Of a DNA stretch of 36,800 nucleotides, positions 26,953 through 28,986 are shown in pieces (positions within the stretch are counted from its first letter, which is position 1; each line of letters starts with the position of its first letter). A program made the position numbers and the translations under genes. Source of the stretch: a virus; the IMG/VR virus record IMGVR_UViG_3300005056_000221, positions 1-36,800 of that record. One strand, 5' to 3'. Under the pieces are notes generated by a model. The model was given only the letters and a program-made list of their open reading frames with translations, did not search any database and was not told the origin of the DNA.

Positions 26953-27106
26953 TGTAAACCCCCACTAAGTTAGTTTTACCAATTGATGCCGCTTTTACGC
27001 TTGTTGCCCTATGCGATCTCAATACACCATCATAAGAAATATATACTCTGCCGCTGTTTCTTATATCTGTTCTGAGTTTTTGCAGAAACTTAATGTTGTG
27101 ATCCAT
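26834..27106 (-). CDS. Small protein of unknown function before Q
   Basis: This 90-residue protein shows an N-terminal helical part (MDHNIKFLQKLRTDIRNSG) and beta-like segments (RVYISYDGVLRSHRATSVKAASIGKTNLVGVYNAQS), then an acidic helix (SDIIDDCLWFINQYDKSK). I do not recognise the family. Its ATG overlaps the stop of the preceding gene as TAATG, and AAGGAAG lies upstream, so translation is well supported. It overlaps the Q-like gene by 119 bases in another frame, an unusually long overlap in an operon where neighbours share only 1-8 bases. Confidence 0.6.
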   Translation of the reverse strand: MDHNIKFLQKLRTDIRNSGRVYISYDGVLRSHRATSVKAASIGKTNLVGVYNAQSTDSDIIDDCLWFINQYDKSKVEQGRVLDQKMDLAE

Positions 27107-27288
27107 TAGTGCACTTCCTTTATTTTTGCTATCTTTGCATCGAGATAAGCGAAGTCAGTATTGTTCATACTCAATACTTCTAGTTGCTCTTGACTCATAT
27201 CTTCACTTTTAACGTACTCATCGATCATGACTAGACATGAAAGCAATGCCAGTCGCATAATTGCTAAATCGTTATCTGTGAAATTCAT
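27106..27288 (-). CDS. Small acidic protein of unknown function
   Basis: This 60-residue protein is mostly helical and acidic (MNFTDNDLAIMRLALLSCLV, EYVKSEDMSQEQLEVLSM). I recognise no family. Its ATG overlaps the stop codon that ends the RusA-type frame (ATGA), and its stop overlaps the next ATG (TAATG), so it is coupled on both sides. Confidence 0.55.
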   Translation of the reverse strand: MNFTDNDLAIMRLALLSCLVMIDEYVKSEDMSQEQLEVLSMNNTDFAYLDAKIAKIKEVH

Positions 27289-27593
27289 GCTAAATACTCC
27301 TCAATTTCTATAATCGTCTTTTCCTCTTCACTTTTAATGCTTTCAAAAGTGATTGACGCGACTTGCTTGGTCGAATCATCTGCAAGTATTCCAGCCCGTA
27401 CAATTCCATCCAATACGGCTTTAGCCGATATACCGTCTGTGTCATGCTCTCTTTTTCTATAGCTGATAACTTTGATAGAGACGAGTGAATTAAATCTCGT
27501 AATTTTTTCCTTTCCCACGGGTTCATCGCCAATATTCTGTTCCATGTTGGCAGCGGGTAAGGTAGTTCTATTGTCACTTTCTTCATTTGCCAT
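27285..27593 (-). CDS. rusA: RusA-like Holliday junction resolvase, catalytic part
   Basis: This 102-residue frame contains the catalytic half of a RusA-type resolvase, which cuts branched DNA made during phage recombination and packaging. The metal-binding Asp residues are seen in REHDTDGISAKAVLDGIVRAGILADDS: D51, D53, the helix with K58 and D62, then D69-D70. These match the DLDN..K..D......DD pattern of E. coli RusA. The first 32 residues do not look like RusA; the expected N-terminal strand appears instead in the overlapping frame 27308-27586. The ATG at 27593 has a poorly placed ribosome-binding site. The stop codon forms ATGA with the next gene. Probably ribosomes enter through the other frame, by programmed shift or because an indel has split the gene. 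Confidence 0.6.
   Translation of the reverse strand: MANEESDNRTTLPAANMEQNIGDEPVGKEKITRFNSLVSIKVISYRKREHDTDGISAKAVLDGIVRAGILADDSTKQVASITFESIKSEEEKTIIEIEEYLA
27308..27586 (-). CDS. RusA-like N-terminal part or overlapping gene
   Basis: This 92-residue frame overlaps the RusA catalytic frame almost completely. It begins KKVTIELPYPLPTWNRILAMNPWERKKLRDLIHS; the strand ending in PxxxN is the usual N-terminus of RusA-type enzymes. The rest (TVYRLKPYW, YLQMIRPSKSRQSL, basic tail) lacks catalytic Asp residues. GAGG lies seven bases before its ATG, which overlaps the upstream stop codon as ATGA, so initiation here is much better supported than at 27593. A run of six A at codons 27-28 is one place where a minus-one slip would lead into the catalytic frame. 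It may alternatively be a separate conserved protein encoded in the same DNA. Confidence 0.5.
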   Translation of the reverse strand: MKKVTIELPYPLPTWNRILAMNPWERKKLRDLIHSSLSKLSAIEKESMTQTVYRLKPYWMELYGLEYLQMIRPSKSRQSLLKALKVKRKRRL

Positions 27594-27726
27594 CCTCGAT
27601 CACAGCCTCCAAATCTTTAATCAATTCGTCCTTTGAATAATCCTTTCCCACATAAACCATGTGATCGAATTTATGGGGTTTAAGCTTTTCTATAATCAGC
27701 TTTAATGATTCTTGTAATTCACTCAT
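27583..27726 (-). CDS. Small protein of unknown function
   Basis: This 47-residue ORF encodes an amphipathic helix (MSELQESLKLIIEKLKPHKF), a short middle part (DHMVYVGKDYSKDELIKDL) and ends EAVIEDGK. I recognise no family. Its TGA overlaps the ATG at 27586 as ATGA, and it starts seven bases after the preceding gene, so it fits the compact operon. A ribosome-binding site (GGGATAAGA) lies upstream. Confidence 0.55.
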   Translation of the reverse strand: MSELQESLKLIIEKLKPHKFDHMVYVGKDYSKDELIKDLEAVIEDGK

Positions 27727-28174: not shown

Positions 28175-28474
28175 TTAGCTAACACTTATCAACCCTTCAC
28201 TTAGCAAAATAGCCTGCGTTCTAACCACGGCTTCTAAGTGAATTAAATCTCTCTTTTCACGTAGAACTAAATGCTCTACATATCCGCCATCCAGCCATTG
28301 ATGACATTCAAAACAGGCATAGGCTCCGTGGATGTCGTGAGACTTCATTCCAATGCCACCACCGTTAAGATGTGCGTACACTGTTTTTTCATTGTCGTAA
28401 CTACAGATGCCTATCACTCTTACTTGGCAATCTTTACCTTTAGCTGATTTTGTTATTTTTGTTTGTTTACTCAC
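28175..28474 (-). CDS. YbcO-like putative nuclease (DUF1364)
   Basis: This 99-residue protein matches the DUF1364/YbcO family of lambdoid phages, small proteins thought to be HNH-like nucleases acting in recombination. Likely metal or catalytic residues are C16 and C24 (DCQVRVIGIC), H35 in YAHLNGGGIGMKSHD, and C54, C57, H58 in AYACFECHQWLDGG. Start is GTG at 28474 with GAGGTGG upstream; it overlaps the end of ninB by eight bases. As in lambda, it keeps company with NinB and a RusA-type resolvase. Confidence 0.85.
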   Translation of the reverse strand: MSKQTKITKSAKGKDCQVRVIGICSYDNEKTVYAHLNGGGIGMKSHDIHGAYACFECHQWLDGGYVEHLVLREKRDLIHLEAVVRTQAILLSEGLISVS

Positions 28475-28961
28475 GCAACCACCTCAAATCATCAGGCGTT
28501 ATCAGTACTACTTGATATTTTTGCAGCACATACTTATCAACAGCGTCTAGCCATCTAGCCATTGATTTAACGCTCATATCTTTGGTTGAAATAACTCTGT
28601 CCCAGAATCCTTTTTGATATTGTTTTAATGCTTTTTCTGATACTTGCTGTAATGCCTTGCAGCTTTCTTTGTACACATCAAACACAGCTACATAGTCTTC
28701 GTCTTGAGCAATTAAAATCTCAGGCACGAATTTATGCTTAAAGTGAAGATTCCAGCCTTTTTTATCTCTACCCCTACCGACACCAGCTAATTGTTTTTCA
28801 AGCTGTGTAAACCACATCCATCTAAGCCTATGCTGTGCGTCTGATCGTGATTCTTTCTTATTTTTAATCGTCACTATCTGGTCAGTTCCAGCATTAAGCA
28901 TTGATATGAAAGCAATGCAGTTAGCTTTTACTTGTGGAGTTGATAAGATGAAGGTGTTCAT
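28467..28961 (-). CDS. ninB: NinB recombination protein
   Basis: This 164-residue protein is a homologue of lambda NinB (Orf), which binds single-stranded DNA and helps load recombinase in place of RecFOR. Conserved features include the N-terminal strands (FILSTPQVKANCIAFI), the motif KKESRSDAQHRLRWMWFTQLEKQ, the internal GRDKKGWNLHFKHKFVPEIL, and the C-terminal SMARWLDAVDKYVLQKY. A GTG at 28973 could add four residues, but the ATG at 28961 matches the family start better. It heads the recombination group with the YbcO- and RusA-like genes. Confidence 0.88.
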   Translation of the reverse strand: MNTFILSTPQVKANCIAFISMLNAGTDQIVTIKNKKESRSDAQHRLRWMWFTQLEKQLAGVGRGRDKKGWNLHFKHKFVPEILIAQDEDYVAVFDVYKESCKALQQVSEKALKQYQKGFWDRVISTKDMSVKSMARWLDAVDKYVLQKYQVVLITPDDLRWLRE

Positions 28962-28986
28962 CAGTCTTCCCACCCATCACCACAGG

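Follow-up and report, generated by a model that had tools for sequence, protein, structure and literature searches.

The window analysed here is a stretch of 36,800 nucleotides from a viral record (IMG/VR IMGVR_UViG_3300005056_000221). On its minus strand two reading frames, called A and B here, overlap (Table 1), B being the −1 frame of A and both remaining open throughout. The stop of an upstream ORF (27583..27726) shares an ATGA with the ATG of A, which is preceded at 7 nt by a GAGG; at the other end the TGA of B shares an ATGA with the ATG of a downstream ORF (27106..27288). An earlier note on this DNA had drawn the same picture: two open frames, the ATGA start overlap, ribosome-binding site and RusA-like N-terminal part in the 92-residue frame, and the catalytic Asp residues and the junction with the next gene in the 102-residue frame. 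On all of these points it was right. How, then, does a gene that is entered in one frame come to be left in another? Is there a −1 shift at a run of six A, an indel in this isolate, a sequencing error, or are there two proteins in one DNA stretch, the four candidates of that note? The run (T on the plus strand) is at 27503-27508, and not at 27490-27495 where it had been placed. The neighbourhood is that of a prophage, as NinB, YbcO, a DnaB-like ORF and terminase subunits are encoded nearby. The YbcO-type nuclease and NinB (28175-28474 and 28467-28973) are close to the A/B pair, which indicates a recombination module.

Table 1. Features of the A/B locus, in window coordinates.
Feature	Position	Strand	Basis
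Gene A, 92 aa, RusA-like N-terminal part and basic tail	27308..27586	−	ORF list, coding constraint
Gene B ORF, 102 aa, RusA-like catalytic part	27285..27593	−	ORF list, RusA family matches
B core (strand-helix-strand-strand), overlays E. coli RusA residues 51-118	27288..27494	−	predicted structure, profile comparison
A residues 3-41, profile match to single-frame phage RusA residues 1-38	27464..27580	−	profile comparison
A tail motif Y67..MIRPSKS76, dual-coded with the ILADDS region of B	27359..27388	−	B wobble bases frozen at A residues
B residues D51, D53, K58 ... D73, aligned with RusA D70, D72, K76, D91	27375..27443	−	alignment
A start codon, ATGA overlap with upstream ORF	27584..27586	−	
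First B start codon, 7 nt before the A start	27591..27593	−	
Shine-Dalgarno-like GGAGG (27606-27610) and GAGG (27594-27597), before both starts	27594..27610	−	

What does each frame encode? The window B matches phrog_34 from residue 35 (6e-9) and Pfam RusA (PF05866) at E 0.0038, with 18.3-19.1 bits, under the curated 22.8; at E 0.1 Pfam RusA is matched by 6 of 68 B members, and the B of locus L150 reaches 24.0 bits. In a one-to-one comparison with a profile of single-frame RusA, built from 11 phage RusA, B aligns over columns 48-126 (E 6.9e-15). Within the B core D18, K25 and D40 are invariant and D20 is kept in at least 90% of 66 B sequences; these residues align with RusA D70, D72, K76 and D91, which we take to be the catalytic Asp/Asp/Lys/Asp. 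The model of the B core (pLDDT 92.5) folds as strand-helix-strand-strand and finds E. coli RusA as its best PDB match (1q8r_B, residues 51-118, Z 6.9, rmsd 2.2 over 66 residues). This structural match is modest, with a Foldseek E of 0.057 and a Z under the tool's safe level, the next unrelated row having Z 3.8; the B sequence profile also ranks RusA first (E 0.034). Alignments and model both suggest that B carries the RusA-like catalytic part. The N-terminal strand and helix of RusA are not in the B chain: the part that matches them sits in the other frame (at least 101 loci) or in a separate gene (three loci).

Is A the N-terminal part that B does not have? At E 1 neither Pfam nor PHROGs matches the window A, A has no PDB match by sequence, and the A family gives nothing consistent in Pfam (68 members), NCBIfam (66) or PHROGs (66). 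When A and B are joined, RusA is matched in Pfam and PHROGs in the B part only, next to a weak, chance-like TFIIE_alpha match across the join (7e-4, below cut-off). One could imagine B as a shortened, self-sufficient RusA-like nuclease and A as an unrelated overlapping accessory protein, such as a DNA-binding partner or an inhibitor. The tail of A is basic and un-RusA-like, with no match to RusA in the profile comparison, and just 1 of 66 A members matches a RusA family in PHROGs, at 0.01, all of which would suit an unrelated protein. The profile comparison of the rest of A makes this explanation unlikely. The whole A aligns with the single-frame RusA profile over columns 3-41 (E 6.8e-5, prob 63.5), and the A N-part alone does so at E 3.6e-6 (score 32.3, prob 87.5), beating all 150 column-shuffled controls, the best of which scores 19.1. 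The match is to the RusA N-terminus, in the correct order relative to B, and the Asn that is invariant in A aligns with the one that is invariant in the RusA set; B itself is without the N-terminal RusA part. From these alignments the first ~40 residues of A would correspond to the N-terminus of single-frame RusA. The solo model of A is weak (pLDDT 66.8) and has no strand in residues 1-14, a segment that may be a strand awaiting its partner sheet.

How widely is this layout kept? Queries and alignments of A and B were run against viral contigs, genome contigs and annotated phages, and the loci from these scans were screened with profiles of the A N-part and the B core. Two of the viral-contig scans contributed their best 80 loci each, and locus totals are lower bounds. 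At least 101 distinct loci, the window included (at least 100 besides it), have the overlapped layout, and in all of them B is read in frame −1 relative to A; this phase formed part of the locus filter, and the only loci with both motifs that the filter set aside are three in which A and B are separate genes. The spacing between A and B is 89 nt in 86 of the 101 loci, 92 nt in 10 and 95 nt in 5, and 88 non-redundant loci are left at <85% identity. In a first set of 100 distinct entries, window included, both motifs occur in 79 among the matches listed, of which 77 have the two motifs closely spaced, B being in frame −1, and two have them apart (L062, L110); the remainder are 20 entries with a B-like core alone and one with neither motif. 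All six B-only loci inspected are single-frame RusA ORFs. In the last scan A was present in 65 distinct loci, 62 overlapped and three separate, and B accompanied it in all 65 (among the matches listed). No single-frame version bearing the A motif occurs among the loci with both motifs, and the single-frame RusA that were inspected are more distant.

The relatives are mostly viral sequences. Among annotated phages the sole overlapped relative found is vir555 (L002, BK063671.1 12539-12826). Its record annotates only A, as a hypothetical protein, and leaves the RusA-like catalytic frame unannotated. One search of these phages, at E up to 10, reached 168 other records, mostly actinophage single-frame RusA among the 40 matches listed, and another gave three Klebsiella records at E 3. 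Relatives are present in 2 of 369 genomes of the class and 1 of 398 of the phylum, own genome included, and one A query found no match in plasmids. A tree of the B core is poorly resolved: it places L062 within the overlapped group with weak support and L150 near the base of that group, and single-frame entries on long branches are mixed into it. Six loci (L007, L060, L061, L063, L064, L068) are a divergent subgroup on one branch of this tree, with PSLNR or PSWNQ in A; in these loci the B frame is already open well before A begins, so that B may have its own N-terminal extension.

Are both frames selected as protein? Across 50 codons of the B core, A is open in 87 of the 88 non-redundant loci against 13.8 expected from synonymous reshuffling of B (z 22); the third frame, taken as control, is open over the same span in 1 locus, where 1.03 are expected. 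Among the 56 wobble columns of B (67 loci), the eight that are most frozen (z from −10.8 to −35.4) each coincide with the middle base of a conserved A residue; with the profile start numbered 0, these residues are I31, H32, V35, Y65, I69, R70, P71 and S74 (I33, H34, L37, Y67, I71, R72, P73 and S76 in the window A); some other columns are frozen more mildly, with z down to −7.3. By codon position, site entropy (59 sequences) follows the A pattern of wobble freedom as far as A codon ~32 and the B pattern from ~36. In the frozen wobble columns A-frame constraint persists at codon 35 and again at 65-74. Protein-level constraint falls on both frames, as in a pair of the Rz/Rz1 type, and argues that both frames code. 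Over the N-half, as far as about codon 31, the third positions of A, which are B first positions, are roughly as free as expected (z above −4). The N-terminal extension of B is therefore not conserved as protein, and the first ~32 codons of B form a −1 shadow of A, unconstrained as protein; B is open over this N-half in 59 of 67 loci, more often than the 36.8 expected.

Two further observations concern single sites and loci. At A codon 32 (from 0; window 27485-27487) His is written CAC in 47 of the 47 loci that have His there, compared with 24 of 54 His elsewhere in the first 36 A codons (59 sequences), probably because its third base is the first base of the Arg/Pro codon of B. In L068, alone among the 88, A ends early, right after the helix, and B stays open; the tail of A may be dispensable in this locus.

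What do the two genes look like when they come apart? Among the matches listed, A and B are separate in three distinct loci (L062/L167, L110/L150/L181 and L175), and the A of the second is identical in another contig, L151. In L150 (the L110/L181 contig) A has its own stop and is followed by an HNH endonuclease gene and then B; L175 is arranged likewise, with one further ORF before B, and in L062 the overlap is confined to the ends of the two genes. In L175 the first start available to B is the MAAKI ATG, which lies right at the catalytic core. L150 has this ATG too, but with an in-frame GTG upstream; the B ORF of L062 also has in-frame starts upstream of the core, and the core ATG comes first in L175 only. 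Between L181 and L175, pN is 0.18 and pS 0.76 for A (0.15 and 0.50 for its second half, which is partly overlapped by the HNH ORF), and 0.22 and 0.73 for B. These values indicate purifying selection on A, second half included, and on B likewise; as the A tail is overlapped by the HNH ORF in L150 and L175, part of the tail constraint may stem from the HNH gene. The separate A of L150 compares weakly with the overlapped tails (11.5 bits, i-E 0.073), and the tail of the L062 A was not found. As for the HNH gene (L150 3177-3725; L175 3135-3749), its longest ORF starts inside the A tail and uses the frame that belongs to B where the genes overlap; residues there, GLHGDNTSQQ in L150, still resemble GILADDSTKQ of B.

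Could ribosomes pass from A into B? Under a programmed −1 frameshift, translation would start in A and a fraction of ribosomes would slip to B near A codons 25-36, the A-B fusion being the real RusA and A alone a second product. Such a join would yield a full-length RusA, the constraint changes from A to B at codons 32-36, and A AAA AAR is found at A codon 25 in 9 of 88 loci, with six or more A at this place in 15 of the 88, window included. Against this, a slippery heptamer is not conserved (any X XXY YYZ at A codons 29-35 in only 4 of 88 loci), and the A frame stays under constraint well past the run of A. In L108 a stop in the B frame separates the codon-25 place from the B core, and the three loci just described have A and B as two separate genes. 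The starts of B point the same way. A candidate start in frame with B (ATG, GTG or TTG) exists in 87 of 88 loci, the exception, L228, lying at a contig end. Among 86 loci, a B-frame start falls 4 nt before the most upstream start of A in 17 and 7 nt before it in 13, compared with 2 and 2 for the third frame at the control distances of 5 and 8 nt. Where B is closed within the N-half of A (9 of 88 loci), all nine have an ATG (5) or TTG (4) at −9 or 0 of the core, which would be needless under frameshifting; among the other 79 loci 16 have a start near the core (Fisher 3.6e-6). Frameshifting as the main explanation therefore appears quite improbable, and the earlier note's shift at the six-A run is not supported; some fusion by frameshifting may occur in addition.

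Although this genome has its RusA parts out of frame with each other, an isolate indel, a sequencing or assembly error or a decaying pseudogene is excluded, because the same phase recurs in at least 101 distinct loci and selection acts on both frames. The layout in two frames is genuine and conserved, and no error. Of the four candidates two proteins in one DNA stretch is the best fit, so the domain split and the layout of the earlier note stand, and its six-A shift, indel and sequencing error do not. That note had also held that its reading would suffer from homologues covering the whole 102-residue frame, first 32 residues included, with the other frame not conserved: relatives do match those first residues, but this stretch follows A, and the other frame is conserved.

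It seems probable to us that the locus consists of two overlapping same-strand genes for a two-polypeptide RusA-like nuclease, rather than of one frameshifted gene. A (92 aa) would supply the N-terminal strand and helix together with its own basic tail, and B (about 70-100 aa) the remaining fold and all catalytic residues. B would be initiated independently, often from a start that precedes the A start by 4 or 7 nt and shares its ribosome-binding region, elsewhere from a start further upstream or from an internal ATG or TTG just before the core. Both products would presumably be made and associate in trans, rebuilding the RusA fold to cut branched DNA, Holliday junctions in particular, beside the NinB and YbcO genes of the phage. 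How might such a pair arise? We lean towards a single-frame rusA that was cut by a one-base shift, after which both parts stayed essential and became fixed as overlapping genes whose products reassemble in trans. The tandem starts at 4-7 nt would then balance the two chains, the out-of-frame tail of A would have been recruited for a new role, and the overlap would later have been undone in at least two lineages, in one of them with an HNH endonuclease gene between the parts. If this is true, the pair is a naturally split enzyme, its two parts encoded in different frames of one DNA segment, and roughly a hundred divergent loci, most of them viral, have kept it. Such a pair would allow tests of how a frameshift can yield two genes instead of being lost, and of how a subunit ratio may be set by start codons 4-7 nt apart. 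The locus also exposes a blind spot of gene calling, the sole annotated record found, vir555, calling only A.

How does this pair compare with known systems? With E. coli RusA (1q8r/2h8c/2h8e) and the phage RusA-like families (phrog_34, PF05866), B shares the D.D....K...D...D pattern and the core fold, and the RusA N-terminus with its invariant Asn is matched by the A N-part. RusA is one polypeptide, whereas here two polypeptides would come from two reading frames; A has an extra basic tail, and most members have D.DG, not D.DN. Programmed −1 frameshift genes (tail chaperones, dnaX, IS3 transposases) carry an N-terminal part in one frame and a C-terminal part in the −1 frame, and the A/B split places its C-terminal part likewise. 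Unlike them, A/B is without a conserved slippery site, B has start codons, the coding of A continues far beyond the switch, and versions with separate genes occur. The titles and abstract openings among the literature matches listed contain no account of a split or overlapping rusA; in the PRFect paper RusA/RuvC is one of the predicted 'false positives' for which a frameshift is said to be already known (PMC10885494). In gene architecture the nearest analogue is Rz/Rz1 of lambda, where two proteins of one complex are likewise encoded in overlapping frames of the same DNA (PMC6139136). The same paper describes embedded, overlapped, separated and single-chain spanins, with annotation often missing one gene (PMC6139136). 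Spanins are lysis proteins, whereas the products here appear to be parts of one enzyme fold; for this nuclease, too, overlapped, separated and single-chain arrangements are all found.
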